Origin: Thiocapsa marina 5811
Lineage (GTDB): Bacteria > Pseudomonadota > Gammaproteobacteria > Chromatiales > Chromatiaceae
Direction of reading: 5' to 3'
Assembly: GCF_000223985.1 (NCBI RefSeq)
Contig: NZ_AFWV01000002.1
Coordinates: 320,501-384,500, forward strand
Length of the DNA stretch: 64,000 nucleotides
Positions 6,250 to 60,206 of the stretch are shown in pieces. Position numbers and translations under genes: made by a program. The notes under the pieces are model-generated. The model was not told the origin of the DNA and ran no database searches. It was given only the letters and a program-made list of their open reading frames with translations. Every line of letters begins with the position of its first letter. The stretch's first letter is position 1.

Positions 6250-6332
6250 GAACCGCGCCAGCTCAGTCGGTCGTCGCGTCTGCCCGGGCCGATCCCATCC
6301 AAAACATCGCATACAGCACAGGGCGCGCTTTA
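6250..6332 (-). repeat. A-type CGCGGTTT repeat unit (copy 1)
   Basis: Read on the minus strand this 83-bp unit matches the A units at 39.6, 50.9 and 54.4 kb over its whole length, including the core TATGCGATGTTTTGGATGGG and the following GATCGGCCC. Its ends are slightly decayed: TAAAGCGCG on one side and GCGCGGTTC on the other. The TAA that ends the minus-strand gene at 6330 is the first three bases of the unit (6330-6332). Confidence 0.8.
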
Positions 6333-6761
6333 GAGGAAATCCGGCAGACTCTTGCGGATGGCCTCGGGGCTATGGGTGGTCAGGTTCTTGTCGATCTCCC
6401 CGGCGACCAACTGTTTGAGCGAAGGGGACTGATGTTTGCGCAGCATCCCCAAAAAAGCCGGAGCAGCGATGACGTAGAGCTTTTGCATCTCCCCTTTGTT
6501 GCGCGCGTTCTCCAGCGTCTCGCAGACCAGGCCGGCGAAGCGTTCGGCATTCTCCTGCTTGTGCGCCTCCTCGCCGTTGACACCGTGCGCCCCCGACATG
6601 GGGTCGTGACCGCGACCGCCCTTGTCGGTTGTCAGATCACCCTCGTGAAGCCGGCCTTCCGGGGAGGTCAGCGTGTGGATCTCGCGCAGCGTGCCAGCTG
6701 ATTTATCGGTGGCGAAGATGCGTGCGCGGCTGTTGTCGGCGGCTAGTATCCAAGTCAACAT
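6330..6761 (-). CDS. Host attachment family protein (eRF1-like fold)
   Basis: 143 residues, full length for the family annotated as 'protein required for attachment to host cells'. The start MLTWILAADNSRARIFA, the basic/Gly-rich middle (GGRGHDPMSG) and the ending VAGEIDKNLTTHSPEAIRKSLP are all family signatures; the fold is related to the eRF1/AF1 central domain. The family name comes from plant-associated bacteria and says little about function here. The protein lacks a signal peptide and should be cytoplasmic. Its stop codon is inside the adjacent repeat unit. It is convergent with rarA. Confidence 0.75.
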   Translation of the reverse strand: MLTWILAADNSRARIFATDKSAGTLREIHTLTSPEGRLHEGDLTTDKGGRGHDPMSGAHGVNGEEAHKQENAERFAGLVCETLENARNKGEMQKLYVIAAPAFLGMLRKHQSPSLKQLVAGEIDKNLTTHSPEAIRKSLPDFL

Positions 6762-6920
6762 GATGTCACCTTACTCCCGTGCTGAGCCCGACCGCGATGC
6801 GGTCGGAACCTTGGGTAAGACGGGACGATCGCCTCCGCGATGCGCGGCTTTGCGGTGCCGCGCCCCTCCCTAGGTCGGTCAGCTCCCGTCTCTTTCAGTG
6901 TAACAGGCCCGTCACGGAAG

Positions 6921-7367
6921 TCAGTGGCCCGGCCGATGCGTGCCGGCAGCGCGTTCGACGCACTCGAGGTAGCTCGCGGCGTCGAAGGGTGCTTGGTTGC
7001 GTTGCAGTGTCCAGAGTGCCTCGGCGAGGCATTCCATGATGCGATGCTCGGTCTCGTGCGGATCGCCGGTGATCTGCATGAGGCGGCTATAGAGCCCACG
7101 GATGCCCGCCGGTTGATCCACGCTCAACTGCTCGAGGATCGCGATGTGCAGACCCATGTGCAGAAATGGATTGGACTCGCCGTGCTCGGGGAGATAGTCG
7201 CGCCCCAGGGTCTTGTCCGCATCGGTCATGAGCGGATGATATTCGGGGTGGCGGCGCAGGACCTCGACGATCTGTGCCTCGACGGGCTCCAAGGGTCGTC
7301 CGGCTTGGGCCTTCTCCCAAGCCGTGATGAAGATGCGACGATGGCTTTCACGGTCGTTTGCGAGCAT
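6921..7367 (-). CDS. DUF1841 family protein
   Basis: 148 residues from the ATG at 7367, preceded by GAGAG. The central NPFLHMGLHIAI block and the preceding RDYLPEHGES, plus the HRIMECLAEALW helix, are the DUF1841 signature. The longer open frame upstream overlaps nth and is not conserved. The stop-to-start gap from nth is about 60 bp on the same strand, so the two are probably co-transcribed, a pairing seen in other gammaproteobacteria. Function is unknown. The 6762-6920 interval downstream has no gene. Confidence 0.8.
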   Translation of the reverse strand: MLANDRESHRRIFITAWEKAQAGRPLEPVEAQIVEVLRRHPEYHPLMTDADKTLGRDYLPEHGESNPFLHMGLHIAILEQLSVDQPAGIRGLYSRLMQITGDPHETEHRIMECLAEALWTLQRNQAPFDAASYLECVERAAGTHRPGH

Positions 7368-7428
7368 GGCGTCGAGCTCTCGATGGGGCTGGGGTTCGGG
7401 CGCGTGGCGATTGCGTTCGATCCTTGCG

Positions 7429-8067
7429 TCACGCCGGTGGCGTCTTGTCGCGATAATCGCACAGATCGGCAATCGGACATTCCGGGCAGCGCGGTTTGCG
7501 GGCGAGACAGACATAGCGTCCGTGCAGAATCAGCCAGTGATGGGCGTCCTTTAAAAAGATCTTGGGGACGTGGCGCAGCAATCCCCGCTCGACCGCGAGC
7601 GGGGTCTTTCCGGGTGCAAGTCCGGTGCGGTTCGAAACGCGGAAGATATGGGTGTCTACGGCCATGGTCGGCTCGCCGAAGGCGGTATTGAGCACGACAT
7701 TTGCCGTCTTGCGTCCGACGCCGGGGAGCGCCTCCAATGCGTTGCGCTCGCGCGGAACCTGACCGCCGTGCTCTGCGACCAGGATCGCGCAAGTCTTGAT
7801 GATATTGGCAGCCTTGCTGTTGAAGAGTCCGATGGTCCGGATATGCGCCTTGAGGCCCTCTTCGCCGAGGGCGAGCATCTTCTCGGGTGTATCGGCAACC
7901 GCGAAAAGATGCGCCGTGGCCTTGTTGACCCCTTTGTCGGTCGCCTGGGCCGACAGGATCACCGCCATGAGCAGCTCGAAGGGCGTGCGATAGACCAGCT
8001 CAGTCGTCGGCGCCGGATTGGCGGCACGAAGACGCTCGAAGAGACGACCGCGCTTTTCCTTGTTCAT
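7429..8067 (-). CDS. nth: Endonuclease III
   Basis: Bifunctional DNA glycosylase/AP lyase for oxidised pyrimidines; 212 residues, the E. coli length. The helix-hairpin-helix LPGVGRKTANVVLN carries catalytic Lys120, and Asp138 lies in MAVDTHIFRV; both have the same numbers as in E. coli. The C-terminal CLARKPRCPECPIADLC gives the Cys-x6-Cys-x2-Cys-x5-Cys ligands of the [4Fe-4S] cluster. The ATG at 8067 gives the usual MNKEKR start. Confidence 0.97.
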   Translation of the reverse strand: MNKEKRGRLFERLRAANPAPTTELVYRTPFELLMAVILSAQATDKGVNKATAHLFAVADTPEKMLALGEEGLKAHIRTIGLFNSKAANIIKTCAILVAEHGGQVPRERNALEALPGVGRKTANVVLNTAFGEPTMAVDTHIFRVSNRTGLAPGKTPLAVERGLLRHVPKIFLKDAHHWLILHGRYVCLARKPRCPECPIADLCDYRDKTPPA

Positions 8068-8234
8068 CGATGGATCATCCGGAAAGACTGTCCGAAGTGA
8101 CAGCCCAATTCGTCGAGCGACTCTCCGACACGAGCGATGACTGGCCTCTTTCGTCAGCTGAAAATCCTGGAGCGGATCAGCTTCCGGAGAATTCGAGCGT
8201 CGAGCCGATCTCGGTCGTGCTGCGCACCCCGGAG

Positions 8235-8281
8235 CTCGTCATCGCAGGAACTCATCATCGCAGGATCTCGTCATCGCAGGA
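8235..8281. repeat. Three-copy 15/16-bp tandem repeat
   Basis: CTCGTCATCGCAGGA is present at 8235-8249 and 8267-8281, with a one-base variant (CTCATCATCGCAGGA) at 8251-8265. It lies in the 255-bp gene-free gap between nth and the LysM gene. No other signal is visible there. Confidence 0.75.
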
Positions 8282-8322
8282 TTGGGGATCGGCGTGATTC
8301 GGCGTTTCGCGAGCGAGCGGAC

Positions 8323-9096
8323 TCAAGGCACGACCAGGGTGACCCCGGGCATCAGCTGATTGGGGTCTCCGAGGACATGGCGATTGGCCTCGAACAGCGC
8401 ACGCCACCGACTGCTGTCGCCGTAGCAACGGCTGCTGATCAGTGCCAATGAATCGCTGGGGCGAATCCGATAGGCGCCTTGTGCGTCGAGTACACGTGCT
8501 AGAGCGAGTTGGTGTCGGTGCAGCAGGGTTTCGGCGTCGGTAATCGCCTGCTCGGCGTTGGCGTCCCGTTTCGGGTCCGGGATGCTCAGCGTCTCGCGCA
8601 ACCTCTCGTAGGCCTCGCGGGCGGCCTGCCGTGCCTGCTCGGCATCGAGTGTGCCGCCGTCCTGTCGGGGAACCCGTGCGCGGAGCGCCTCGAACCGGCG
8701 TTCGAGCGCCTCGTGGGCCGTGGTCAGCGAAAGCCTGCGGGCGTCGAGGTCCGAGAGTTGTTGGTCGCGCTCGCTCAGGGCCTGCTCAAGCTCGAGCAGC
8801 GCCTCTTTCAGGCGCTGCACCTCGCCGTTCAGGCGCTCGATCTCCTGGGTCCCCTCTGCAAGCCGGCGCTCCGCCTCCATGCGGGCTTGGTCGGCGCTCT
8901 TGCGGGCATGGGCCGATTCCTTGAGTTTTCCCTCCATGCCCAGGAGTCGCAGAGTCATCGCTTCGATCTCTGCATCGGGCGCAACCGCGGGCTCCCGATC
9001 TGCCGACGGATCCTCGATCCCCCATGATGCAGCGGCGACGAGCAGCAGCAGGATCGCGGCGATGGCGCCGCTGTGCCGAGAACGATCCCGGGTCAT
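8323..9096 (-). CDS. Coiled-coil protein with C-terminal LysM domain
   Basis: 257 residues. An N-terminal hydrophobic segment (IAAILLLLVAAASWG, about residues 11-26) is a signal peptide or membrane anchor. Residues ~40-135 are Glu/Arg/Leu-rich heptads, a predicted coiled coil. The end (AYRIRPSDSLALISSRCYG ... LMPGVTLVVP) is a LysM peptidoglycan-binding domain at about residues 205-257. The layout suggests a periplasmic protein attached to the cell wall, resembling FimV/YgbD-type spacer proteins, but no specific function is recognised. It is followed on the same strand, before its start, by trpB2 across a short gap of 47 bp, so it may be read from the same promoter. Confidence 0.7.
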   Translation of the reverse strand: MTRDRSRHSGAIAAILLLLVAAASWGIEDPSADREPAVAPDAEIEAMTLRLLGMEGKLKESAHARKSADQARMEAERRLAEGTQEIERLNGEVQRLKEALLELEQALSERDQQLSDLDARRLSLTTAHEALERRFEALRARVPRQDGGTLDAEQARQAAREAYERLRETLSIPDPKRDANAEQAITDAETLLHRHQLALARVLDAQGAYRIRPSDSLALISSRCYGDSSRWRALFEANRHVLGDPNQLMPGVTLVVP

Positions 9097-9143
9097 GGTG
9101 AATCTCCTGGCATCGTCTCGGCTAGAGGTCTAATGCCCCGTGT

Positions 9144-10505
9144 CTAAGCGACGCTGGGAAGCCCGGACAGGGCCATGGCGACCTCGTCCTCGGCATAGGT
9201 CAGATCCTTCAGCTTGCCGGCCAGGTAATCGGTATAGGCCTGCATGTCGAAGTTGCCGTGGCCGCAGAGGTTGAACAGGATCGTCTTGGCCTCGCCGGAC
9301 TCGCGGCACTTTTCGGCCTCGACGATGGCTGCCTTCACGGCGTGATTGGCCTCCGGCGCGGGGACGATGCCTTCGGCCTTGGCAAACCGGATGCCGGCCG
9401 CGAAGCAATCCAACTGATTGTAGGAGGTCGGCTTGATGTAGCCGAGCTTGGTCAGGTGGCTGATCTGCGGTGCCATACCGTGATACCGCAGTCCTCCGGC
9501 GTGAAAGCCCGGCGGCACAAAGCTGGACCCGAGGGTATACATCTTGACCAGCGGGGTGAGTTTTGCGGTATCGCCGTAGTCGTAGGCGAAGAGACCCTTC
9601 GTCAGCGTCGGGCAGGCCGATGGCTCGACGGCGATCAGCTCGATGTCGCGCCCGCCGCGCAGCTTCTCGCCCAGGAACGGGAAGGCGATGCCGGCGAAGT
9701 TGCTGCCGCCGCCGGTGCAGCCGATGATCATGTCCGGGTAGTCTCCGGCCATCTCCAACTGCTGTTGTGCTTCGAGGCCGATGACGGTCTGATGCAGCAG
9801 CACGTGGTTCAGCACGCTGCCGAGCGCGTACTTGGTGTCGTCACGCTGGGCGGCCAGCTCCACGGCCTCGCTGATGGCGATTCCGAGACTGCCGGTGCTG
9901 TCGGGATGCTCCGCGAGGATGGCCCGTCCGGACGCGGTGGTTTCGCTCGGACTGGCGATGCACTGAGCCCCGAAGGTCTCCATGAAGGCGCGTCGGTACG
10001 GCTTGTGGTTGAAGCTCACCTTGACCATGTAGACCACGATCTCGAGGCCGAACATGGATCCGGCCAAGGCGAGCGACGAGCCCCATTGACCCGCCCCGGT
10101 TTCGGTGGTGATCCGCTTCACGCCTTCCTGCTTGTTGTAGAAGGCCTGCGGGATGGCGGTGTTGGGCTTATGGCTGCCGGCCGGGCTGACACCCTCGTAC
10201 TTGTAGTAGATCTTCGCCGGGGTGTTGAGCGCCTTCTCCAGTCGACGTGCCCGGTAGAGCGGGGACGGGCGCCATTGCCGGTAGACCTCGCGCACCGGCT
10301 CCGGGATTTCGATCTCGCGCTCGGTGCTCATTTCCTGCTCGATCACGGCGCGCGGGAAGATCACCGCCAGATCGTCCGGTGTAATCGGCTGTTGGGTGCC
10401 GGGGTGCAGGACCGGATCGAGAGGCGTCGGAAGATCGGCGTTGATGTTGTACCAGGTGCGCGGGAGATGCTGCTCGTCGAGCAGATATTTGACTGAGTCG
10501 CTCAT
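9144..10505 (-). CDS. trpB: Tryptophan synthase beta chain-like protein, TrpB2 type
   Basis: PLP enzyme of 453 residues. The pyridoxal lysine is Lys113 in AGSHKPN, the substrate loop is ETGAGQWG (135-142) and the phosphate-binding glycine loop is GGGSN (265-269). Length and the N-terminal extension ([18 protein letters not shown]) are of the TrpB2 class, not the ~400-residue TrpB1. TrpB2 makes tryptophan from indole and serine and lacks the TrpA contact surface; it may salvage indole. There is no trpA beside it, consistent with a stand-alone role. Confidence 0.9.
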
Positions 10506-10642
10506 GCTGTCGTCGGACCTCAGGGTGAATGGGTAACCGGCTGTCGTTGCGGCCGGTCTCTTGCGTCCGTCGGCAAGTGTGCCAGTTTTGTGACCGATCT
10601 TGAATCCCGTCCGGGCGTCGATATCGGCCGAGCGACTTGCCG

Positions 10643-10666
10643 CGATCCCCCTACCGCGGGGGATCG
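10643..10666 (-). terminator. Hairpin between the beta-helix gene and trpB2
   Basis: CGATCCCCC pairs with GGGGGATCG around a six-base loop: nine perfect GC-rich pairs in the 236-bp gap after the minus-strand beta-helix gene. No T-run is present. Confidence 0.45.
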
Positions 10667-10741
10667 GGACGAAAATCCGTGTCGGGATTGCCTCGCCCGA
10701 GCATCGGAGGTCGCGTTCCGGCCGGCGACCGGTCTCGGAAG

Positions 10742-38573: not shown

Positions 38574-39434
38574 ATGAAGCGCATGCCACTCTCGACGGCT
38601 CTCTTGTTGGCATCCTTTTGCTCGAACGTCCCGTCATCCGCCGAGCCGCCCGGCGATGTCGCCCCGGGTTCGCCTGCGGGTCTGCCCGAACCGCTGCGCG
38701 ATGCGCTCGCCGGCGGCGGACTGGCTCCGGAGCTTATGGCCCTGCCGGCAGGTCGCTTTATGCGCGGCGATCTGCAGGGAAACAGCACGGATGTCGATGA
38801 AAAATCTCCGATCGATGTGACCCTGTCGAGGCCCTTCGCGATCGGGGTCTACGAGGTCACCTTCGATGAATTCGATACCTTCTGCGACGCGACCGGTCGC
38901 GACAAGCCGGACGACTCCGGCTGGGGTCGTGAGCGGCGCCCTGTCGTGAACGTGACCTGGAACGACGCCGTCGCATACACCGCTTGGCTCAGCGAACAAA
39001 CGGGCCGGCGTTATCGGCTGCCGACCGATGCCGAATGGGAGTACGCCGCCCGCGCCGGCACTGCGACACGCTTTTGGTGGGGCGATGATCTCGGTGTGGA
39101 TCTCGCCAATTGCGCCGGGTGCGGCAGTGCGTGGGACGGTTACGAGACGGCGCCGGTCGGCTCCTTTCAACCCAACCCCTTCGGCCTCTACGACACGGCG
39201 GGCAATGTCTTCGAATGGGTCGCCGATTGCTTTGCGGAGACCTTCGCGAAGGCGCCTGCCGACGGCAGCGCCCATGAGAATCCTGCGGGCTGTGGTCAGC
39301 GGGTCTATCGGGGCGGCAGTTGGAGCTTTCCGCCCCGCGAGGTGCGCTCGGCGAATCGGTGGCGGGACTTCCCGACCGGTTCAAGCGACGACATGGGATT
39401 TCGGGTCGTGCGCGAGCTGGATCCCGAGCGCTGA
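38574..39434 (+). CDS. Exported formylglycine-enzyme-like (SUMF1) domain protein without the catalytic cysteines
   Basis: 286 residues with a signal peptide (ending SNVPSSA). The FGE-sulfatase fold is recognisable: FAIGVYEVTFDEFDTFCDAT, PVVNVTWNDAVAYTAWLSEQTG, RLPTDAEWEYAARAGT, NPFGLYDTAGNVFEWVADC and VYRGGSWSFPP. In true FGE enzymes cysteines follow the RGGSW motif; here they are replaced by Ser/Val, so formylglycine formation is not expected. Related proteins (NirV) accompany nitrite reductase genes. Its place behind norCB suggests a helper role in denitrification enzymes. Confidence 0.82.
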   Translation: MKRMPLSTALLLASFCSNVPSSAEPPGDVAPGSPAGLPEPLRDALAGGGLAPELMALPAGRFMRGDLQGNSTDVDEKSPIDVTLSRPFAIGVYEVTFDEFDTFCDATGRDKPDDSGWGRERRPVVNVTWNDAVAYTAWLSEQTGRRYRLPTDAEWEYAARAGTATRFWWGDDLGVDLANCAGCGSAWDGYETAPVGSFQPNPFGLYDTAGNVFEWVADCFAETFAKAPADGSAHENPAGCGQRVYRGGSWSFPPREVRSANRWRDFPTGSSDDMGFRVVRELDPER

Positions 39435-39583: not shown

Positions 39584-39670
39584 TTAAACCGCGCCCAGTG
39601 CGGTATGCGATGTTTTTGGATGGGATCGGCCCCGGCAGTTTTTGACGACCGCTGGAGACGGCGCAGTTTA
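39584..39670 (+). repeat. A-type CGCGGTTT repeat unit (copy 2)
   Basis: Begins TTAAACCGCGCCC and ends GCGCAGTTTA. The interior (GTATGCGATGTTTTTGGATG, then GGATCGGCCCCGGCAG) is nearly identical to the A units at 50.9 and 54.4 kb. It stands alone, without an AT-rich linker or B unit, in the 400-bp gap between the SUMF1-like gene and the toxin-antitoxin pair. Nothing else is seen in that gap. Confidence 0.85.
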
Positions 39671-49885: not shown

Positions 49886-50764
49886 ATGACATCCAGACAC
49901 GCCGCTCGTCCGATCTCGATTCCGAACACCGGCGCGATGGCCGGTCACGCGGCGCAGGCGTCCGCCGAGACCCAGCGCGAGACCCGGCGCGAGTCGATCT
50001 TTTATCAGCCGCAAGGCCGCGAGGTCGCGCTCTTCGAATACGCCTTCCAAAATCGCCTGCCGGTGATGATCAAGGGGCCGACGGGCTGCGGGAAGACCCG
50101 CTTCGTGCGCTATATGGCCGAGCGCTGGGAGCGCTCGCTCTACACCGTCGCCTGTCATGACGATCTGACCGCGGCGGACCTGGTGGGACGCCATCTGATC
50201 GGCGCCGAGGGGACCTTCTGGAGCGATGGTCCGCTCACGCGTGCGGTGCGCGAGGGCGCCATCTGCTATCTCGACGAGGTGGTGGAGGCGCGCAAGGACA
50301 CCACGGTGGTGCTGCATCCCCTCACCGACGATCGACGTATCCTGCCGTTGGAGCGCACCGGCGAGACCCTGCAGGCGCCGCCCGGATTCATGCTGGTCGT
50401 CTCCTACAATCCCGGTTACCAGAACCTGCTCAAGGGGATGAAACCGAGCACGCGTCAGCGCTTCGTCGCTGTCACGCTCGGCTTTCCCGAGCCACGCCTG
50501 GAGGTCGCGATCCTGATCGGAGAGACCGGGATCGAGAGCGCATGGGCCGAGATGTTGGTGCGGATTGCCGGCTCGCTGCGCGCACTCAAGGACCACGACC
50601 TCGAGGAAGGCGTCTCGACGCGATTGCTCGTCTATGCGGCGACCCTGATCCAGGCCGGCATGGACCCACGCGACGCCTGTCTCGCCGCGCTGGTCGAGCC
50701 ATTGACCGACGATGCCGAGACCATCGCGGCACTCGCGGAGGTGATCGATGCGACACTTGTTTAA
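49886..50764 (+). CDS. norQ: NorQ/CbbQ-type MoxR AAA+ ATPase
   Basis: 292 residues. Walker A GPTGCGKT at 64-71, Walker B AICYLDEV near residue 130 and sensor 1 VVSYNPGYQ. The block LPVMIKGPTGCGKTRFVRYM is typical of NorQ/CbbQ. With NorD it is thought to insert the FeB iron into NorB. Starts six bp after norF. The last codon is GTT and the stop TAA (50762-50764) is the start of a repeat unit, so the C-terminus may have been reset by insertion. Confidence 0.93.
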   Translation: MTSRHAARPISIPNTGAMAGHAAQASAETQRETRRESIFYQPQGREVALFEYAFQNRLPVMIKGPTGCGKTRFVRYMAERWERSLYTVACHDDLTAADLVGRHLIGAEGTFWSDGPLTRAVREGAICYLDEVVEARKDTTVVLHPLTDDRRILPLERTGETLQAPPGFMLVVSYNPGYQNLLKGMKPSTRQRFVAVTLGFPEPRLEVAILIGETGIESAWAEMLVRIAGSLRALKDHDLEEGVSTRLLVYAATLIQAGMDPRDACLAALVEPLTDDAETIAALAEVIDATLV

Positions 50765-50953
50765 ACCGCGTCCAGAGCGAGATGCTCATTTTCGAGTGAG
50801 CTCGACGTTTCGTGCATCCACGGCCCTTAGCGGGGACGCGGTTTAAAATGATATATTTTTTAATATCCTAAACCGCGCCTGCTCCAACGGTAGTCAAGTC
50901 TGCCGAGGCCGATCCCATCCAAAAACATCGCATACCGCACTGTGCGCGGTTTA
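50761..50953 (-). repeat. Composite repeat: B unit - AT linker - A unit (copy 3)
   Basis: B unit 50761-50846 runs from TTAAACCGCGTCC to GGACGCGGTTTAAA; the linker 50847-50868 is TGATATATTTTTTAATATCC; the A unit 50869-50953 runs from TAAACCGCGCC to GCGCGGTTTA. Read on the minus strand it is A-linker-B and matches the copy at 54375 through the A unit, linker and first half of B. The norQ stop lies within its left end. Confidence 0.9.
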
Positions 50954-50965
50954 GGTCGAAGTCTT

Positions 50966-51379
50966 ATGAAAAGTACCCGGCCTGTAGGTCAGCGGATCGC
51001 CATCGCCGCCGAGTCGCTGTATCTCGCCAACCTGCTCATCCTGCCCGGGATCGGCTTTCTGCTCCTGCTGGTGCTCGCGTTTTGGGGGCGGGAGGGTCGC
51101 GCACCGCTGGCGGCTGCACACCTGGATCAAACAGTCCGCGCGAGTCTCTGGGCCGGAGTGCTACTGATCATCGTGATCTCCGCGGTCATGGCGATCGCCG
51201 GTGCCGGAGCCATGTACGTCTGGACGCTGGTGATCCTCTATTTCATCGTCTGTCACACCACGCTGGTCCTGCTCGGTGTCTTCGGCCTGACCAAGGCGTT
51301 GGCTGGACACTGCTGGCGCTACCCCTTGGTCGGGCCGCCGCTTCCGGGCGGGTGTCCTCAGGCAAAACGCCATGTCTAG
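50966..51379 (+). CDS. Small membrane protein of the nor cluster
   Basis: 137 residues from ATG 50966. Three membrane helices: LYLANLLILPGIGFLLLLVLAF, SLWAGVLLIIVISAVMAIAGAG and VWTLVILYFIVCHTTLVLLGVF, ending with a short polar tail. A DUF4870-like pattern is possible but uncertain. It starts 12 bp after a composite repeat and overlaps the polyferredoxin gene by eight bases, so the two should be co-translated. Its function is unknown. Confidence 0.7.
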   Translation: MKSTRPVGQRIAIAAESLYLANLLILPGIGFLLLLVLAFWGREGRAPLAAAHLDQTVRASLWAGVLLIIVISAVMAIAGAGAMYVWTLVILYFIVCHTTLVLLGVFGLTKALAGHCWRYPLVGPPLPGGCPQAKRHV

Positions 51380-52475
51380 AACCCGGCTGCAACAACGGCG
51401 AGCCTGGTTTCAGGTCGGTTTCTTTGCGCTCTTCCTGCTGGCGCCGCCGCTCGATCTCTTTCGGATCGATCTGACGCTCGGTCACGCGATCCTGTTCGGG
51501 CAGCACTGGACGCTCGGGATCGAGGACTTTCTCGCCGGTCGCACCGGCATCGGCGATGCGACGCTCAACCTCTTCGTGCGCGGCTTTCTGCCGATCTTCG
51601 GCGGTGCCGCGCTCTTCTTGTTCATTGCCTGGCGTTACGGGCGTCTCTATTGCGGTTGGCTGTGTCCGCATTTCTCGGTTGTCGAGACGATCAACGCGCT
51701 GATGCGCCGGGCCTCCGGCAAACCCAGCATCTGGGAGCGCCGCACTTTGCCGCCGCCGCTGCGCGGTCCGATCCCGATGACGGTGACCGGCGCGCCGGAT
51801 CCGAGCCCGAAGTCCCCGGCGTCGGCTCCGTATTGGAACCGCTGGTACTGGATCCCGACCCTACTCGCCGTGGTCGGCTTCGCCTTCCTCTGGGCGCTGG
51901 CCCTGCTCACCTATCTCCTGCCGCCCTTCGAGATCTACCACAACCTGCTGAACGGCACCCTGACCCGTAACCAGAGCATCTTCCTGACGGCGGCCACCAT
52001 CGCGCTCACTGTCGAGTTCCTGCTCGCGCGCCATTTCTTCTGCCGCTATGTCTGCGCGGTCGGTCTGTTCCAGAGCCTCGCCTGGATGGCCAACGATCGG
52101 GCGATGGTGGTCGGCTTCGACACCCGCCGCGCAGCCGCCTGCGCCGATTGCGACAACGCCTGCGACCATGCCTGTCCGATGCGTCTGAAGCCGCGCACGA
52201 TCAAACGCAAGATGTTCACCTGTACCGAGTGTGCCGAATGCATCTCGGCCTGCACACAGGTCCAGCACGGCGACCCGCAGCAGAGCCTGCTGCGCTGGGT
52301 AGACGGCGCGGAGGCGTTGTCGGTCGTCACCGGACGCCCGAGCACGCCGAATCAGGAATCCGGCCTGCCTTCCGAGTCACGACACAGGCCCGGCAGACAA
52401 CAAGACAAGCCGAACCACGCGATGGGTCCGTCCTGGACCGCGCAGACAGGCGGCGCGACGGCTCGAAGCGCATGA
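51372..52475 (+). CDS. Membrane polyferredoxin (CcoG/NapH/NosR-like)
   Basis: 367 residues, four or five membrane helices. Cysteine motif CGWLCPH at residues 94-100, then two ferredoxin-type clusters: Cys257, Cys260, Cys264 and Cys268 (CADCDNACDHACP) and Cys284, Cys287, Cys290 and Cys294 (CTECAECISAC). The family passes electrons through the membrane or helps assemble copper/heme enzymes (CcoG, NapH, NosR). Located between norQ and norD it may serve maturation of the NO reductase or a linked oxidase. The last ~40 residues are Pro/Gln/Arg-rich and not part of the fold. Confidence 0.82.
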   Translation: MSRTRLQQRRAWFQVGFFALFLLAPPLDLFRIDLTLGHAILFGQHWTLGIEDFLAGRTGIGDATLNLFVRGFLPIFGGAALFLFIAWRYGRLYCGWLCPHFSVVETINALMRRASGKPSIWERRTLPPPLRGPIPMTVTGAPDPSPKSPASAPYWNRWYWIPTLLAVVGFAFLWALALLTYLLPPFEIYHNLLNGTLTRNQSIFLTAATIALTVEFLLARHFFCRYVCAVGLFQSLAWMANDRAMVVGFDTRRAAACADCDNACDHACPMRLKPRTIKRKMFTCTECAECISACTQVQHGDPQQSLLRWVDGAEALSVVTGRPSTPNQESGLPSESRHRPGRQQDKPNHAMGPSWTAQTGGATARSA

Positions 52476-52539
52476 ACACCGTCGCATCCCGTGCGCCTTT
52501 GCGGCTTGACCACCTTTCCACGAGCCGCTGAACGCCGAC

Positions 52540-54378
52540 ATGGAAGAGCAAGTCGGAGCACTCTGGCATCGCGCCATCACCCGTCTGTCGGAGCGGCGGC
52601 ATCCCTTTGCCGCGGTGACGCTCGAAGAGGTGGCCGTCCCGATCGGGATCTTCTTCCGTGCTCTGGGCGGCGACGGCGGACTGCAGGTCGAAGCGGCTGA
52701 GGCGAGCGCACACGGCGCCCGTCGTGGATTCCTGCAACGACTCGCCGGGCTCGACGAGAAGGTCGAGCTGGCCTGGCGCGACGAGCGCTCCTTGCGGCTT
52801 CCCGCCCGGATCGACCTCTTCGCGGAGCGCGCACTCAATCGCGATCTCTACATCTGGCTCGCCGCGCTCGCGGCCCAGCAGACAGGCCCGACCCGAGATT
52901 GGCTCGTCGAGAGTCAGGACCAGGCTCGCCGGACGCTCTCGCGATTTCCGGGCCTGCGCCCGCGCTACCGGCGGCTGCTCGACGCCCATCTCGACCTGCG
53001 CCCGGATCCGCGCGCCCTGCCGGCAGACGAGCGTGCGCGTGAAGAGGCCATTCGTCTTGCGCTGAAGGATCCCGGCAGTGTCACGCGGCTCCCGACAGCG
53101 CGCCGTCCGCCGTATCCGGTCGTGCTCTGGCTGCATCCCGATCCCGAGCTCCCGGCCGGTGCCTGCTCCGATCCCTCCGGCGGCGAGGCGCAGGATATCG
53201 ATCGCGATGCCGCCGTCGAGTCGCTCGGCGAGCGCCGTCGGCGACGTGCCGAGCGGGTCGCCATGCCGGAGAAGGACCAGGGGCTGATCACGATCCGGAT
53301 GGAGAACATCCTCACCTGGGGCGAGCACGTCCAGGTCGACCGCGGGACCGACGAGGAGGACGATCTGGAGCGCGCCCGCACCGCCGCGGCCGATCTCGAT
53401 CGCATCTCGGTCGCGCGTGACCGTCAGGCATCCGGCGCGCGTTTGAAATTCGATCTGGATCTGCCGGCCGAGTCCGAGGACGATCTGGTCCTCTCGGAGG
53501 GGATCCTCTTGCCCGAGTGGGACTGGCGAAAGGGTACACTTTGCCCGAATCAGTGTCGCGTGGTCCCGCTCATCGCCGCGGACGCGACACCCTGCGCGCT
53601 GCCCGAGCACCTGCGCCGTACGGCCCATCGGCTGCGCCACCAGTTTCAGGCCCTCGCCCCGGCGCGGGTCTGGCAGCGCAGTCAGTCCGATGGACAAGAG
53701 ATCGATCTGGACGCCTATCTGCGTTTCGCCACGGACCGCCAAGCCGGTGCCGGCACCCATGCCGACGGACTCTATCGCGACATGCGCAAGGGGGCGCGCG
53801 ATCTGGTGTGCCTACTGCTTTCGGATCTGTCGCTCTCGACCGACACCTGGGTTGACGACCACGCACGCGTCATCGATGTCATCCGCGACAGTCTCTTTCT
53901 CTTCGCCGAGAGCCTGGCCGCGACCGGCGATCGCTTCGGCATGCTCGGCTTCTCCTCGCGTCGTCGCGACCCGGTGCGCATTCACAGTCTGAAGGACTTC
54001 GACGAGCCGCACGGCGCCGGCGTGCGCGGGCGCATCGCCGCCATCAAGCCCGGCTATTACACCCGCATGGGCGCAGCCATCCGCTACTCGACTCGCCTGC
54101 TCGCCGCGCAACCGGGCGGACGCCGTCTCCTGCTGATCCTCTCCGACGGCAAACCCAACGACCTCGACCGCTACGAAGGCCGCTACGGGATAGAAGACAC
54201 CCGCCGCGCCGTCCAGGAAGCCCGCGCCCTCGGCCTGACCTGCTTCTGCGTCACCATCGACGAGCGTGGCAACGACTATCTCCCCCACCTCTTCGGCACC
54301 GGCGGCTATGTCGTCATCCGCCGGCCAACAGAGCTTCCGGCGCAGCTCCCGGTTCTTTACGCGCGGCTGACGGCTTAA
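52540..54378 (+). CDS. norD: NorD/CbbO-type von Willebrand factor A protein
   Basis: 612 residues. The C-terminal ~200 residues form a VWA domain with MIDAS motif Asp429-x-Ser431-x-Ser433 (SDLSLSTD) and the later LILSDGKPNDLDRYEG. The N-terminal region matches CbbO/NorD proteins that work with NorQ as a metal-inserting chaperone pair. It lies 64 bp after the polyferredoxin. The TAA stop (54376-54378) is inside the following repeat, as with norQ. Confidence 0.93.
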   Translation: MEEQVGALWHRAITRLSERRHPFAAVTLEEVAVPIGIFFRALGGDGGLQVEAAEASAHGARRGFLQRLAGLDEKVELAWRDERSLRLPARIDLFAERALNRDLYIWLAALAAQQTGPTRDWLVESQDQARRTLSRFPGLRPRYRRLLDAHLDLRPDPRALPADERAREEAIRLALKDPGSVTRLPTARRPPYPVVLWLHPDPELPAGACSDPSGGEAQDIDRDAAVESLGERRRRRAERVAMPEKDQGLITIRMENILTWGEHVQVDRGTDEEDDLERARTAAADLDRISVARDRQASGARLKFDLDLPAESEDDLVLSEGILLPEWDWRKGTLCPNQCRVVPLIAADATPCALPEHLRRTAHRLRHQFQALAPARVWQRSQSDGQEIDLDAYLRFATDRQAGAGTHADGLYRDMRKGARDLVCLLLSDLSLSTDTWVDDHARVIDVIRDSLFLFAESLAATGDRFGMLGFSSRRRDPVRIHSLKDFDEPHGAGVRGRIAAIKPGYYTRMGAAIRYSTRLLAAQPGGRRLLLILSDGKPNDLDRYEGRYGIEDTRRAVQEARALGLTCFCVTIDERGNDYLPHLFGTGGYVVIRRPTELPAQLPVLYARLTA

Positions 54379-54532
54379 ACCGCGCCCGGCGCAGTATGCG
54401 ACGTTTTTGGATAGGATCGGCCCCGGCAGACTTGATGGCTGTTGGAGCCGTGCGGTTTAAAGTATTAAAAAATATATTATTTTAAACCGCGCGCCCGCTA
54501 ATCGTTGTGGATGCACCAAACGTCGAGCTCAC
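54375..54532 (+). repeat. Composite repeat: A unit - AT linker - partial B unit (copy 4)
   Basis: A unit 54375-54461, linker GTATTAAAAAATATATTA, then a B unit starting TTTTAAACCGCG at 54479. The B unit matches the 50.8-kb copy up to the CGTCGAGCTCAC at 54532 and then diverges, so its far end is lost. Orientation is opposite to copy 3. The norD stop codon is its first complete codon. Confidence 0.9.
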
Positions 54533-54632
54533 CAACTCTCCGACGAGGTAAGACAGGATGCCGAGGCGCAACTCGCGGAGCCGGAGAAGCGTCTTCGGCG
54601 GTAGGTGCGTGGTTTGAGGCACACTTTGGCCG

Positions 54633-55229: not shown

Positions 55230-55350
55230 TTCGACGTCTCCCCTGATTTGATTCGTGCGCGGCGCGACCCGGCCGATACCCCGTGTACCGCCGTATCGGC
55301 GCCGCACGCCGGAGTTTGACGCGGAGAGTCCGGCCATACAAGCGCAAAGC

Positions 55351-55402
55351 GGGGCAGCGGGGCAGCGGGGCAGCGGGGCAGCGGGGCAGCGGGGCAGCGG
55401 GG
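55351..55402. repeat. Six-copy GGGGCAGC tandem repeat
   Basis: Six perfect 8-bp units and a half unit, giving seven evenly spaced G4 runs on the plus strand. It lies between the minus-strand SCO1-like gene end (55443) and the midcut gene start, 41 bp after the stop. It could form G-quadruplexes and is a likely slippage hot spot. Confidence 0.95.
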
Positions 55403-55442
55403 TACGTCGGACGCGTCGCCCGGCCGAACCGAAACGTGCGCT

Positions 55443-56078
55443 TCAGCCCGGAGGCAAAAGGCGCTGGGTCATCTCTGACTCGGGCGTCTCGGACAAGAGT
55501 GCCTCGATCCGCTCGGCGATCTCCACCGCCGGTGTCGAGTAACCGAACTTACGAATATAGCTTCCGTCGGGGCCGAGGAGATACATCCCCGCGCTGTGGT
55601 CGACGTGGTAGCGATCAGGCGGTGCTCCAGGCTCGGTGACCTTCTCGTAACGGGCGTTGAAGTTTTGGGCGGCGCGCGCGATGAGCGACGCCGAGCCGGT
55701 GAGGCCGATGATGCGCGGGTGAAAGTAGGCCGTATAGGTCGCCAGCACCTGCGGGGTATCGCGCTGCGGATCGACCGTGATGAAGATCGGCTGGACGCGA
55801 TCCGCGCGATCGCCCAACTGCTTCAGTATTGCCGCGGCCTCGACCAGGGTGGTCGGGCAGATGTCCGGACAGTAGGTGTAGCCGAAGGCGATGAGCTGGA
55901 ATTGGCCGGGGAAATCGGCGTTGGTGACGGCACGTCCATTGGCGTCCATCAGGAGATAGCGCCCGCTCGGCGGGGACTCGTCATCGGCGGGCGCTTCGGC
56001 GGCTTCGATCGATCCCGTGGCTATCCCGGCGGCCAGAAGTAGTGCTGCAACCAGCGGCGCGACGACGGGAATCGTCAT
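55443..56078 (-). CDS. SCO1/SenC-family copper chaperone
   Basis: 211 residues from ATG 56078. An N-terminal anchor (VVAPLVAALLLAAGIATGS) is followed by a thioredoxin-like domain with the copper motif CPDIC (Cys70, Cys74), FITVDPQRDTPQVLATYTAYF and the conserved His in YHVDHSAGMYLL. Such proteins deliver copper to oxidase or NO/N2O-reductase centres. The longer frame upstream belongs to another gene region. It overlaps the preceding gene by four bases and is in one operon with it. Confidence 0.92.
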   Translation of the reverse strand: MTIPVVAPLVAALLLAAGIATGSIEAAEAPADDESPPSGRYLLMDANGRAVTNADFPGQFQLIAFGYTYCPDICPTTLVEAAAILKQLGDRADRVQPIFITVDPQRDTPQVLATYTAYFHPRIIGLTGSASLIARAAQNFNARYEKVTEPGAPPDRYHVDHSAGMYLLGPDGSYIRKFGYSTPAVEIAERIEALLSETPESEMTQRLLPPG

Positions 56079-56515
56079 GATCCGGTCTCGTCGTTCGGCA
56101 GGGACGTCTCGGCGCCGGGCGGTTGCGGCGCAGACGCTTCCGGGCTCGCTTGCTCCGGATTCGCGTGTTCGGGGAAAACCGCCTTCAGTGCTGCCGCCGA
56201 TTTCGCCAATCGCGCCGCCAAATCGGCCTCGGTCGGGCAGGGCGTACCGTCCTTGGTCGCCGCGAGGAAGGCGGCGTTGGTCGCCGTCTCGAAGAGGGTT
56301 CCGTAGCGGCGGGTCTTGGGTGCATGACCGATCATCAATGCCTTTGCATTGCTGGACGTATCGAACTGCCGACAGGCGAGCGCCTGGCCGTTCAGCGTTC
56401 CCAACGTCCGGACCTCTGCAAAGCCGATCTCGGTCGAATCGGTCGACGGGGTCGGATCGGCGACAGCGAGCCCCGTGGACATCAGCACTAGACCGGTCAG
56501 GATCGGAAATCTCAT
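56075..56515 (-). CDS. Small exported protein preceding the SCO1-like gene
   Basis: 146 residues from ATG 56515, with GGAGG upstream. Signal peptide MRFPILTGLVLMSTGLAVAD. The mature part has FAEVRTLGTLNGQALACRQF, then ALMIGHAPKTRRYGTLFETATNAAFLAA and PCPTEADLAARLAKSAAALKAVFP; two cysteines are present. The Pro/Ala-rich tail looks disordered. No domain is recognised, but position suggests a periplasmic partner of the copper chaperone. Two FNR/Dnr-like boxes lie upstream. Confidence 0.75.
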   Translation of the reverse strand: MRFPILTGLVLMSTGLAVADPTPSTDSTEIGFAEVRTLGTLNGQALACRQFDTSSNAKALMIGHAPKTRRYGTLFETATNAAFLAATKDGTPCPTEADLAARLAKSAAALKAVFPEHANPEQASPEASAPQPPGAETSLPNDETGS

Positions 56516-56587
56516 GCGGGGCCTCCAAGGCTTCGGCGGGGTCGGTGTCTTCGCGGATGCGCTCGGGTTGCCGACGACCCCTTTTTT

Positions 56588-56601
56588 ATCATCCGGATCA
56601 A
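56588..56601 (-). promoter_or_regulatory. FNR/Dnr-like box upstream of the SCO1 operon
   Basis: Minus strand TTGAT-CCGG-ATGAT (one mismatch at ATCAA). Centre at 56594.5 puts a class II start near 56553, 38 bp before ATG 56515, a sensible leader. Confidence 0.5.
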
Positions 56602-56645
56602 AACCAAGCTCGCTTTTCAGCATAGCGTAAGGGGACTCCGATCCC

Positions 56646-56659
56646 TTGACGGAGATCAA
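56646..56659 (-). promoter_or_regulatory. Second FNR/Dnr-like box, overlapping the lysR stop
   Basis: TTGAC-GGAG-ATCAA; symmetrical TTGA-N6-TCAA core. Too far upstream (about 130 bp) for simple activation of the SCO1 operon unless there is a second promoter; chance is possible. Confidence 0.4.
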
Positions 56660-57627
56660 GTGCGGCAGACCGGCGCGGGCTCATGGTCGTGAAGCGCCTG
56701 GATCCGCTCCAGTTCCTCTGCCCCCGGGGCAAGCTGTGCGGTCTCGAACAACTCCTTTTCCGTCGGCGTGCCGCCGTCGGCGGGCGATCGTTCCGCGATG
56801 ACCGTATGCAGGGTCGACAGCGCCGCATCGAGCACGGGCGACTCGCTCTCCAACGGATAGACCACGTAGGCCGGCAGCAGAAACCGCGGGCTTTCGGGTG
56901 CCACGTGCAGGCAGCCCGCACGCACGTAGGGTGCGGCGACGCGCTCGGGGACGAAGCAGGTTCCCCCGTTGGTCAAGATCAACTGCAGACCGAGCCAGCC
57001 GATGTTGGCCATCTGGGCCGGCCGTTCCAGATTCGGGTAAACCTTGCTGTGCTGGGCATAGAAGGTCGGCCCCCAGTTCACGTAGACATAGCCGTCGTCG
57101 AGCTCCGTTCGCTGCGGATCGCTGGTCACCAGGACCAGTGTCTCGTCGAACAAGTGCTCCACCTGAAGGCCGGCGCTGTGCTGCGGCGTGTACATCAAGG
57201 CGAGGTCCAGCGTGCCTTCGACGATGCGCCGCATCAGATCGTCCTCGAAACCGATCTCGCTGCTGATCGAGACATCCGGTGCCTGCTCGCGCATCCGCCC
57301 GGCCCACAGCGGTAGGAAGCCGTCCCAAAGAGCGATACGCGCGCCGATCGTGATGCTGGCCCGAAAGCGGCTGGGTAGACCGACGTCGTGGCGGGCCTGC
57401 TCGAGCGTCAACACCAGCGTCTTCGCATGCCGAAGAAAGCGCCGACCCGCGGGCGTGAGTGTCGCGCCCGAGCGGTTGCGCACGAACAGCCGGGCGTTCA
57501 GGTAACGCTCGAGACCCTGAATGCGCGCGCTGACCGTGGATTGGGTGACGTGCACGCGGTTGGCGGCCTCCTGGAAACTCCCGTGCGCGGCGACCGCCAA
57601 GAAGGTTCTGACCTGGTCAATATCCAT
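56656..57627 (-). CDS. LysR-family transcriptional regulator
   Basis: 323 residues. N-terminal winged HTH (MDIDQVRTFLAVAAHGSFQEAANRVHVTQSTVSARIQGLERYLNARLF split over about residues 1-48) followed by the effector domain with the usual alternating beta-alpha pattern. Its ligand is not evident. A CGCGGTTT repeat abuts the start codon, so the promoter must lie in or beyond the repeat. It is divergent from the DsrC-like gene and may control it. Confidence 0.9.
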   Translation of the reverse strand: MDIDQVRTFLAVAAHGSFQEAANRVHVTQSTVSARIQGLERYLNARLFVRNRSGATLTPAGRRFLRHAKTLVLTLEQARHDVGLPSRFRASITIGARIALWDGFLPLWAGRMREQAPDVSISSEIGFEDDLMRRIVEGTLDLALMYTPQHSAGLQVEHLFDETLVLVTSDPQRTELDDGYVYVNWGPTFYAQHSKVYPNLERPAQMANIGWLGLQLILTNGGTCFVPERVAAPYVRAGCLHVAPESPRFLLPAYVVYPLESESPVLDAALSTLHTVIAERSPADGGTPTEKELFETAQLAPGAEELERIQALHDHEPAPVCRT

Positions 57628-57711
57628 AAACCGCGTCCATCATGGCTGGGGCACGATGCGTCTTGGGTGAGCGTTGTCTCGATCCATCATCGTCGGAGCG
57701 AACGCGGTTTA
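57628..57711. repeat. Single CGCGGTTT repeat unit, B-like (copy 5)
   Basis: AAACCGCGTCC at 57628 to ACGCGGTTTA at 57711. The GCGTCC/ACGCGG ends resemble the B type. It begins on the base next to the lysR ATG and ends 6 bp before the long DsrC-like frame opens. Confidence 0.8.
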
Positions 57712-57929
57712 GGTGATTGACCATGTCTTTGGTTGATGCTCCTTCGTGGATAAGGTTTGAGGTTCCCGCGTCCTCGAGGTTGCGGGTTCAGACGAAGCAT
57801 ACCGCCATGAAGCCGGTTCTCGAATCGAAAACATCGATATCTAACGCCGAAAGGATTCGTTTGTCTCGGGGTCCAGTAGAGGCTAATTTAATGATATGGA
57901 TCAAGATCGATGGAGTTGGAGACGAGACC

Positions 57930-58571
57930 ATGATTGACGTAAAGGTGTCCATGAAGGTCACGAATGAGCCGCTGAAACGCACGCCCGTGGTCCTCAAGCT
58001 GGATGCGGACGGCTCCGAGACGGCGCCCGTCTTCACCGACCGCGCGGGCGTGGCGCACTTCGACCTGCCGCCGACCAGCGGCAAGGTGCTGGTATCCGGG
58101 GTGGAGCGTTTCGACGGGCGCCTCGACGGCGAGATCCCGATCGAGCTGTGGTCGATCACCCAATCCGAGCGCAACTCGAAGGGTCTGCCGGGCGAGTTTC
58201 CCTCCGGCAGCAACGCCTACCCGGGCATGACCACCCGCAGCATCCAGGTCGGTGAGCGTACGATCCTCACCGACAGCGAAGGTTACCTCGTGGATCCGTC
58301 GGATTGGTCGGAGGAGTTTGCCCGCGCCCTGGCGGCGCATGACGGGCTCGCGCTGAATGCCGAGCACTGGGAGGTCATCCGCTTCCTGCGGGCGAGCTAT
58401 GTCAAACGCGGCACCCAGGCGACGGTGCGCGATATGATCGCTCATTTCCGCAAGATCTGGGGCAGCGAGAAAGGGAGCAACCGCTATCTGCACCAGCTTT
58501 TCCCGCGCGGCGGCCCGCAAAAACAAGGCAATCGATTGGCTGGTCTACTTCGCACGAAGGGCGAGCACTGA
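57930..58571 (+). CDS. DsrC/TusE-like protein without active cysteines, with N-terminal beta domain
   Basis: 213 residues from ATG 57930 (GGAG upstream); the frame opens at 57717, but those codons are A/T-richer and unlike the rest. Residues ~1-105 resemble a beta-sandwich (VVLKLDADGS, FTDRAGVAHFDLPP). Residues ~110-213 are a DsrC/TusE domain: LTDSEGYLVDPSDWSEEFA, LNAEHWEVIRFLRASYV, HQLFPRGGPQKQGNRLAGL. DsrC uses two C-terminal cysteines 11 residues apart; here Asn201 and Glu212 replace them. Such cysteine-less homologues are thought regulatory. The N-terminal fusion is unusual. Confidence 0.75.
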   Translation: MIDVKVSMKVTNEPLKRTPVVLKLDADGSETAPVFTDRAGVAHFDLPPTSGKVLVSGVERFDGRLDGEIPIELWSITQSERNSKGLPGEFPSGSNAYPGMTTRSIQVGERTILTDSEGYLVDPSDWSEEFARALAAHDGLALNAEHWEVIRFLRASYVKRGTQATVRDMIAHFRKIWGSEKGSNRYLHQLFPRGGPQKQGNRLAGLLRTKGEH

Positions 58572-58705
58572 GCGGCCGTCGGGAACGGGTCAAAACGACC
58601 GAAACAAGTCGCCGGGGCGTGCTTGCGAACCCCGGCTGGGCGCCGACGACGGGGTTTCCGAGGTTGGCGCTCGGTGAGCGGTCTGCGCAGTCGGATCGGG
58701 ACGAT

Positions 58706-60001
58706 TCAGGATTGCGGTTCGACTCTCGAGGGTGCCGGCCGGAGCAGGACAGCGCCCCGTCGATAGGTGCGAGCGACGCCGATCAACAATACGAGCAACA
58801 GGATCGAGGAGAGCGCGAGCGCGATGCCTGCCGGGCGGGCCAGCACCGGAACCCACAGGCTGCCCGCGAGCAGCATCAGCGCGGCGAGATGCAGGCCAAA
58901 CTGGATCCGTGCCCACCGTATCGACAGCAGGCTGCCCATATGCGGTATGCGCAGGTCGAACCGTCCGCTCGAGAGTTGGCGATGCTGGAGGTGAAACCAG
59001 GTCAGGAACGGCAAGATCTTAAAGAGCATGCCGGCCGGCAGTCCGACCCCGAGTCCCACCAACAGGAGCACGCCGACGAGGGTCGGCGGCGCCGCGAAGA
59101 CCCACGCGAGCGCTGCGCAGCAGAGGCTCAGCATGGCCGCCCACCAGTGCAGCAATGTCGGATCCATCCGGGGTCGCTCGCGACGGCTGATCGAGCTCAG
59201 GGTGACAAGCGCAAAGCCGACGAACCCCAGCGCGACTCCGCCGATGACGGCCCGCCCGACGAGCTCATCCCCCATGATCCAAGCCGTGCTTGCTGCACCG
59301 ATCCCAACCAGGACGGCCGGCGCGAACCAACGCCGCATGGGCGCCGGATAGGCCGGGGTGACATAGAACATCGGCAGCACCTGGATGGCCACGCCGACCA
59401 CCAGCAGCCCGACCCAGCCCATCAACCCCCAGGCGACATGTGAATCGACCCAGGGGGTGTGATGCGCAACCCGGAGCCACCCTTGCAGGACGGCGACCAG
59501 CAGCAACCCCAAGGCGACCGTGACCGCCAAGGCCAAGGCGGCCGTGCGCAGCGCCAGCAAGGTTCCCGGGGCACCGCGCGCCCGCATCAGTGCGATGGCG
59601 ACCGGGACGACGAAGACCAGGAATCCCAGCGCAGAGGCCCCGGCGCCGATCCAGATCAGGGTCGGACCGCCTCCCCCCAGCCCCCAAGCTAGTCCGGCGG
59701 CGCCGACGGTGAGCAGGAGATGCGTGGCCGTGCCGACCAATCGCACCCCGGGGACCGGTGCGCCCGCGACGACGGGCAACATCTGAAGCAGCGCACCGCA
59801 CATGATCGATCCGAGATAGCCGATCGCGATCAGGTGGGTCGCGGCGAGAGCGCCGGGCATCCAGCGCGAGACCAAGAGGGTCGGTCCCTCCCAAGCCAAG
59901 AGCAGCCCGGCGGCGATCGCAAACAGCGGCGCGGTCAGAAAGAAGCGTGCGGGGATGTCGATCGGCGGGGCCTGATCGAGTGAGAGTCCGCCGGTATCCA
60001 T
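58706..60001 (-). CDS. Polytopic membrane protein of the NO-response group
   Basis: 431 residues with about 12 membrane helices. Conserved-looking His-containing stretches: MPGALAATHLIAIGYLG, SIMCGALLQMLPVVAGAP, VDSHVAWGLMGWVGLLVVG and MLFKILPFLTWFHLQHRQL, suggesting heme or metal binding. The pattern resembles membrane proteins found with nor/nnr genes, but I cannot name the family safely (NnrS-like is one option). It starts next to a composite repeat and is the last gene after hemerythrin and DUF2249 on the same strand. Confidence 0.6.
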   Translation of the reverse strand: MDTGGLSLDQAPPIDIPARFFLTAPLFAIAAGLLLAWEGPTLLVSRWMPGALAATHLIAIGYLGSIMCGALLQMLPVVAGAPVPGVRLVGTATHLLLTVGAAGLAWGLGGGGPTLIWIGAGASALGFLVFVVPVAIALMRARGAPGTLLALRTAALALAVTVALGLLLVAVLQGWLRVAHHTPWVDSHVAWGLMGWVGLLVVGVAIQVLPMFYVTPAYPAPMRRWFAPAVLVGIGAASTAWIMGDELVGRAVIGGVALGFVGFALVTLSSISRRERPRMDPTLLHWWAAMLSLCCAALAWVFAAPPTLVGVLLLVGLGVGLPAGMLFKILPFLTWFHLQHRQLSSGRFDLRIPHMGSLLSIRWARIQFGLHLAALMLLAGSLWVPVLARPAGIALALSSILLLVLLIGVARTYRRGAVLLRPAPSRVEPQS

Positions 60002-60008
60002 TATTTTT

Positions 60009-60206
60009 TTGAGCCGCGTTTGGAGTGCGTGTGGTCGCTTTCTCGTTTGGGTTTAGCGTCGAGGACTCTGGCAGCGCTCGGCGCGACGCGGTTCAAAAAA
60101 ATGAATAATTTACTCTTTTTAAACCGCGCAGCTCCGACGCCGGTCGGCAGGGACGAACCCAGAATCCGAGCACTGAACATCGCATGGCCCAACGCGCGCG
60201 GTTTAA
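60009..60206. repeat. Diverged composite repeat: B-like unit - AT linker - A-like unit (copy 6)
   Basis: First unit 60009-60096 (TTGAGCCGCGTTTGG ... GACGCGGTTCAA), linker of about 22 bp (AAAAATGAATAATTTACTCT), second unit 60119-60206 (TTAAACCGCGCAG ... CGCGCGGTTTAA). The second unit keeps the ACATCGCAT core of A units. It fills the gap between two minus-strand genes: the DUF2249 stop is inside its right end and the membrane-protein ATG is 7 bp from its left end. Confidence 0.8.

Follow-up and report, generated by a model that had tools for sequence, protein, structure and literature searches.

The window, a 64,000-nucleotide stretch of the Thiocapsa marina 5811 genome, contains seven loci of a single short repeat, with edges placed by profile and motif, and five of the seven lie on a stop codon. 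All six loci listed in a preliminary description of this DNA are present, but the doublet at 4750-4939 had been missed. The loci are composed as follows.

4750-4939, unstranded: doublet of units 4750-4835 and 4855-4939 with TGAAGCGCG-type (TG-type) ends; a LolA-type gene has its stop codon, TGA at 4750-4752, in the first bases of the doublet, and the start of the next gene is at 4942
6249-6332, minus strand: single X ('A') unit, profile score 63.7 bits; the minus-strand Host_attach gene has its stop codon at the right edge, 6330-6332
39585-39670, plus strand: single X ('A') unit, 81.1 bits, away from a stop codon (the upstream gene ends at 39434)
50762-50845, plus strand: Y ('B') unit, first part of the doublet 50762-50953; a CbbQ/NorQ-type (norQ-type) gene has TAA at 50762-50764 as its stop codon
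50846-50868, unstranded: AT-rich doublet spacer of 23 bp
50869-50953, minus strand: X ('A') unit completing the same doublet, 85.3 bits
54376-54459, plus strand: X ('A') unit, 75.6 bits; a VWA-domain (norD-type) gene has TAA at 54376-54378 as its stop codon
54460-54482, unstranded: AT-rich doublet spacer
54483-54567, minus strand: decayed Y ('B') unit that has lost its outer end, 24.1 bits
57627-57711, unstranded: single diverged unit
60010-60205, unstranded: two diverged units, 60010-60095 and 60120-60205, forming a doublet; a DUF2249 gene has its stop codon in the right-edge TAA, 60203-60205 on the minus strand

One profile fits all four of the units that had been grouped as 'A units', and the core TATGCGATGTTTTTGGAT ascribed to them is matched without change at 39.6 and 50.9 kb and with slight changes at 54.4 and 6.3 kb. 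The stop codons named for the Host_attach, norQ, norD and DUF2249 genes were each confirmed, as were the two contacts with start codons: the first base of the unit at 57627 is also part of a LysR-type start codon, and the start codon at 60001 lies 8 nt from the last doublet. The Y unit that is decayed at 54483-54567 is intact at the orthologous place in KS1.

A family of short units with paired ends

The units are 84-86 bp long, have inverted ends of the form (Y)TAAACCGCG...CGCGGTTTA(R) and belong to one family, as had been proposed, with 366 of 467 distinct units falling into one cluster at score 19, whereas shuffled comparisons (n=3000) reached a maximum of 11. Within the window TAAACCGCG occurs 11 times against 0.25 expected from shuffles, and among exact-ended pairs spaced 60-110 in 1.26 Mb all 74 of 74 have a spacing of 84-86 bp. 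The ends pair over 9-12 bp, the unit thus being a short element with terminal inverted repeats, as the definition of a bacterial MITE has it. Where ends have changed, both were altered alike in 26 of 57 cases (permutation mean 6.1, maximum 14). A requirement for the two ends to pair, or to be bound jointly, across a set spacing would explain the constant unit length and the matched end changes. In many copies two units form an inverted doublet of ~192 bp around an AT-rich spacer, and others are single.

The wider search that the preliminary description had called for was run, and it returned 313 exact-ended copies in the whole Thiocapsa genome, against 0 in the reversed control, and dozens to hundreds of copies in other members of the genus and in certain other Chromatiaceae. 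One genome of the genus, G123, is free of the element. Consensus folding revealed no conserved RNA structure in the interior of the units, no terminator-like T run was noted in them, and the window has no Rfam 15 match at gathering score. Viruses, plasmids and phages gave no match to the exact pattern or to one doublet used as query. A match in Laspinema (L028), located in a frame that we take to be ClpX-like, was regarded as chance. A literature search on Thiocapsa and Chromatiaceae repeats, largely confined to non-subscription papers, showed none on this repeat among the papers listed.

Insertion sites and stop codons

In relatives, element-free sites hold 2 bp, often TA, in place of the element, and orthologous comparisons show a 2-bp gap more often than any other (17 of 148). 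The units are therefore mobile, MITE-like insertions, as suggested earlier for TTAA-type targets; a TA-type target is what the element-free sites support. Filled sites read Y-TA...TA-R. The element-free dinucleotide at 13 clean loci is TA in 4, TG/CA in 5 and something else in 4, and a second method gave TA in 8 of 15 close comparisons, some of these inside other copies. Because TA stands at only 4 of the 13 clean loci, despite element-free YTAR sites remaining TA in 179 of 242, a plain TA duplication is not proven.

Since the terminal TA is followed by A, a stop codon that receives an insertion is restored as TAA, and the end of the protein is kept. When C-termini were compared with orthologues, as had been advised, the element-free orthologue proved to have its stop, TAG or TGA, in the same codon position at six of the ten stop loci compared; two of the remaining four differ by one residue and two are unalignable. 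Judging from these alignments, the stop codon is apparently preserved by the repeat and not, as the preliminary description had it, supplied by it, and the protein keeps its end. A stop codon inside a repeat need not signal truncation of the gene.

In 2.06 Mb drawn from three genomes, an edge coincides exactly with a stop codon at 96 of 191 loci, compared with 13.6% of loci expected from the available YTAR sites, which bears out the earlier point that random insertion can hardly account for such placing. Gene calls were home-made, and restricting them to long, high-scoring genes leaves 60 of 191 loci on a stop. Occupancy of YTAR sites is 93/326 at stops, 21/70 at 1-10 nt and 2/40 at 11-20 nt, the excess spanning the region from the stop to about +10 nt. 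With GC, target word and gene orientation controlled, the stop-zone effect corresponds to odds of ~8 (likelihood ratio 104), and GC around the target was thereby rejected as the source of the bias. Between convergent genes the occupied fraction of YTAR sites is 38/141 in the stop zone vs. 4/292 outside it, and within genes none of 959 YTAR sites is occupied by an edge-matched locus. Younger and older copies do not differ in the fraction at stops (48/98 and 48/93), and oriented single units face one way in 31 of 39 cases at stops vs. 14 of 38 elsewhere. In comparisons between species, elements at stops were shared in 25 and empty in 10, and other elements were shared in 9 and empty in 12 (15 unclear comparisons excluded, both directions counted); greater sharing at stops would also be expected from selection or from re-used sites.

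Possible origins of the stop-codon preference

The equal age classes, the +10 nt zone, the strength of the effect between convergent genes and the preferred orientation all point to a bias of insertion. We therefore lean, with moderate confidence, towards a non-autonomous MITE-like element that is mobilised in trans and whose stop preference is set when it inserts. It stands inserted both as single units of 84-86 bp and as inverted doublets of ~192 bp, and the preference would be fixed by choice of target, with the outer end towards the gene, and not by later selection. More tentatively, target choice may be tied to gene ends: one preferred end would be turned towards the gene, insertion would fall within the stop codon or up to 10 nt behind it, and re-formation of TAA would make the insertion silent, the enzyme sensing translation termination or a state of the DNA, directly or via a host factor. 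The element would then avoid harm by landing where no protein changes. The kind of element is known and its target preference is unusual; a bias set at insertion would be an unusual way of target choice in bacteria, and hundreds of natural insertions are available for reading the targeting rule.

The lack of occupied YTAR sites within genes, and the presence of the target word in TAA and TAG stops, would suit an ordinary TA-target MITE that inserts at random over YTAR sites, with selection sparing the harmless copies at or just behind stops. This is rather unlikely, however, considering that the stop zone is favoured so strongly between convergent genes, a setting in which promoters are not expected, that the bias is constant with age, and that units at stops have a preferred orientation. 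A role as a gene-end signal, retained by selection since it ends or protects mRNAs, we hold to be unlikely. A fraction at stops that stays constant from younger to older copies is not what such retention predicts, the interior structure is not conserved and lacks a noted T run of the terminator kind, and a stem beginning within the stop codon would presumably be covered by the terminating ribosome, even though the higher interspecies sharing at stops, the orientation, the strong use between convergent genes and the pairing ends are all compatible with a signal. Ribosome occlusion of the stem as a selective reason in operons is itself disfavoured, since convergent genes show the stronger bias.

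REP sequences and REPINs, which are associated with RAYT, occur in high copy number as pairs of alternating orientation with pairing ends. The Thiocapsa repeat is similar in its many copies, inverted pairs and pairing, co-changing ends, and the genome has eight Y1_Tnp loci; but none of these, inspected over ~1.5 kb on each side, is bordered by units (one unit lies ~1.3 kb away), and the 2-bp footprint and ~85-bp units also differ, making movement by a RAYT (Y1) transposase, in place of a TA-target MITE mechanism, very improbable. That the units create stop codons, and so truncate or extend neighbouring genes, would accord with a terminal TAA or TGA serving as stop at the 96 loci but is contradicted at the six where the element-free orthologue has the same stop, and is almost certainly wrong.

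No transposase with unit ends was found among 27 transposase loci of this genome (8 Y1_Tnp, 6 DDE_3 and 13 DDE_Tnp_1). Pairs of ends that enclose no unit, sought as an autonomous partner, are spaced 1.6 to 4.8 kb; of three such places inspected, L241 and L243 were rejected as carrying genes, presumably ISL3-like and IS66-like, inserted into units, and L136 as enclosing ordinary genes. L301, a 620-aa DDE_Tnp_1 transposase flanked on both sides by complete units, was rejected for having ends of its own unlike those of the units; of the two other copies of this transposase, L298 is without a unit, and L303 has, 13 bp further along, an end resembling that of a unit.

The nearest precedents are RUP, pneumococcal BOX and ERIC. 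RUP is likewise a short repeat with terminal inverted repeats (TIR) and TA-containing targets; it has 107 bp and a 9-bp TIR, is thought to be moved by IS630-Spn1, and differs in that this partner IS with matching ends is known, whereas none was found for the Thiocapsa repeat (PMC2229807, PMC3049150). BOX is also modular, high-copy and intergenic, and is set apart by description, having other modules and another host (Streptococcus). Of 58 coding sequences overlapping BOX, 36 have a BOX-encoded stop codon, and orthologues gave no strong evidence of truncation; exact placing on stops relative to available targets, and orientation, are reported here and were not found for BOX in the available part of that account (PMC3049150). 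ERIC (RU-1) shares with the Thiocapsa repeat its short, non-coding nature, TA ends, stem-loop and position between genes, itself shows TA duplication, has a 7-bp TIR (tabulated in PMC2229807), and is distinguished by its description and its length of 127 bp in enterobacteria (PMC2229807, PMC2759123).

Distribution and anatomy of the repeat

The units, 84-86 bp repeats with inverted ends, form one family. All six loci claimed for the window in the preliminary description are present, although that count was short, since a seventh locus at 4750-4939 had been overlooked. TAAACCGCG occurs 11 times in the window vs. 0.25 in shuffles, and TAAACCGCG-N(55-80)-CGCGGTTTA has 313 copies in the whole genome of T. 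marina 5811 and none there when read backwards. This pattern is present in 18 of 146 Chromatiaceae genomes, nine with 46 to 471 copies and nine with 1 to 3; the named records carrying it, among the matches listed, are Thiocapsa, Thiobaca, Thiocystis, Lamprocystis and further Chromatiaceae (a single Laspinema record among them is regarded as a chance match). No exact copy was found in one genome of the same genus (G123, 4.7 Mb), while the five other Thiocapsa searched alongside it, T. marina 5811 included, hold 120-471, a contrast that offers a handle for identifying the mobilising gene. A scan of viral_contigs for the pattern found none, and plasmids and phages searched with one doublet (two inverted units and a spacer) as query gave no match.

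In an initial set of sequences, which takes in some overlapping loci, 165 of 189 units measure 84-86 bp from end to end, as do all 74 exact-ended pairs in 1.26 Mb of the T. marina genome (scan range 60-110). The bases flanking a unit on the outside are a pyrimidine at one end and a purine at the other. There are two large unit classes, X (201 units; the A unit of the first reading) and Y (150 units; its B unit), and 62 of 77 doublets combine X and Y in inverted order. The spacer of X/Y doublets (n = 94) measures 22-23 bp in 81, is 85% A+T and carries an A-tract, which is strongly conserved in the 23-bp spacers (TATTAAAAAATATA in one orientation, e.g. window 50846-50868); a host DNA-bending protein might bind it. 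No conserved fold was found in the unit interior; the unit ends pair with each other. Where both ends are altered, they show like changes in 26/57 cases (permutation mean 6.1, maximum 14), and in 12/39 without the TGAACCGCG type (mean 2.3, maximum 9). Pairing of the two ends, or their recognition as a pair, would explain this; subfamily spread or quasi-palindrome repair could add to the pattern.

Placement at stop codons

With genes called by a home-made codon model, three genomes (2.06 Mb together) gave 191 loci, and at 96 of these an element edge lies exactly on a stop codon (T. marina 58/114, Thiocapsa sp. KS1 15/23, G146 23/54); a profile-based method gave 102/211, and long high-scoring genes only gave 60/191. 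The share expected from availability is 13.6% for YTAR targets and 8.4% with TG and CA as additional targets. Five of the seven window loci are so placed, at LolA-type, Host_attach, norQ-type, VWA-domain (norD-type) and DUF2249 genes. Two doublets occupy nearly the whole intergenic gap, the next start codon following 2 and 12 nt past the element edge (from edge to start, window 4939-4942 and 50953-50966, respectively), and the ribosome-binding site of the next gene may be partly inside the element. In other Chromatiaceae, the TAA of 14 of 63 outer edges closes a reading frame 200 or more codons long (other frames 1 and 2); for at least 80 codons the count is 22 vs. 13 and 11.

YTAR sites are occupied in 93/326 cases at stops, 21/70 at 1-10 nt and 2/40 at 11-20 nt, and at a rate of 0.7 to 8.6% in the remaining classes. 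On contig copies with elements removed (132 loci with a YTAR junction kept), occupancy in the stop zone vs. outside was 38/141 vs. 4/292 for convergent and 42/222 vs. 36/748 for tandem gene pairs. GC, target word and gene orientation were ruled out as the cause, odds of about 8 remaining.

The idea that units supply the stop codons was not borne out: among ten stop loci comparable with an element-free orthologue, the orthologue ends at the same codon in six (TAG in three, TGA in three); a one-residue difference was seen at two, and the last two are unalignable. As the first base of the element after TA is A, any TAR stop becomes TAA. Judged from these alignments, stops are apparently kept by insertion, not made.

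We favour a bias at insertion as the origin of the stop preference. The on-stop fraction is 48/98 in copies nearest other copies and 48/93 in more diverged ones; by class, it is 54/110 with X, 12/24 with Y only and 30/57 for others. Single units that could be oriented (29 could not) have the outer end towards the gene in 31/39 cases at stops and 14/38 elsewhere. Where a single unit stands 85-112 nt behind a stop, it may in some cases be what remains of a doublet that has lost its first half to decay. Selection could also lie behind the placing: elements at stops are oftener common to several species (25 shared and 10 empty vs. 9 and 12 for other elements, both directions counted and 15 unclear comparisons excluded), which counts against targeting.

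Mobility and insertion footprint

The norQ-norD region, searched against 11 genomes of the same genus, gave 57-67 matches in each of 8; most of those listed span the doublet alone. Relatives differ at the norQ end, where a Y-X doublet, a single X, a reversed X, an X-Y doublet or no element is found. A single unit stands opposite a doublet at four sites (92-95% identity), which reads as the precise gain or loss of one unit together with the spacer.

Flank comparison of stretches from T. marina 5811, KS1, G146 and T. roseopersicina DSM 217 yielded 148 pairs, with 2 bp the commonest gap (n = 17). Of 13 clean loci, 4 have TA as the element-free dinucleotide, 5 have TG/CA and 4 have another. TA is retained at element-free YTAR sites in 179 of 242 comparisons, which leave out 76 with another gap; by a second method, 8 of the 15 close comparisons showed TA, with some located inside other copies. 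A TA duplication at insertion is likely, and it is possible instead that the element carries its own terminal TA and swaps out two bases.

As a side observation, the stretch that precedes the VWA-domain (norD-type) gene, 52341-52539, is variable between same-genus genomes, being alike in DSM 217 and of other sequence in KS1, G149 and G146.

Known repeats and transposases

ERIC and RUP resemble the element in short inverted ends and TA (PMC2229807, PMC2759123, PMC3049150), and BOX in encoding stop codons of neighbouring genes (PMC3049150). A Coxiella MITE is reported to extend the end of one gene (PMC5896051), whereas the Thiocapsa element appears to keep stops.

Because none of the 27 transposase loci of T. 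marina has the unit ends as its own ends, the class is placed no further than 'MITE-like'. An element with a 620-aa DDE_Tnp_1 transposase directly abuts a unit, its end coinciding with the terminal TA of that unit (L301:2677), and its own ends appear unlike unit ends; another copy of this element (L303:1066-1079) lies 13 bp from a unit-like end, and a third copy (L298:2433) has no unit end nearby. IS630 prefers CTAG. In G146, repeat units are interrupted by inserted genes, one ISL3-like and one IS66-like (L241:7282-8866 and L243:12750-14366).
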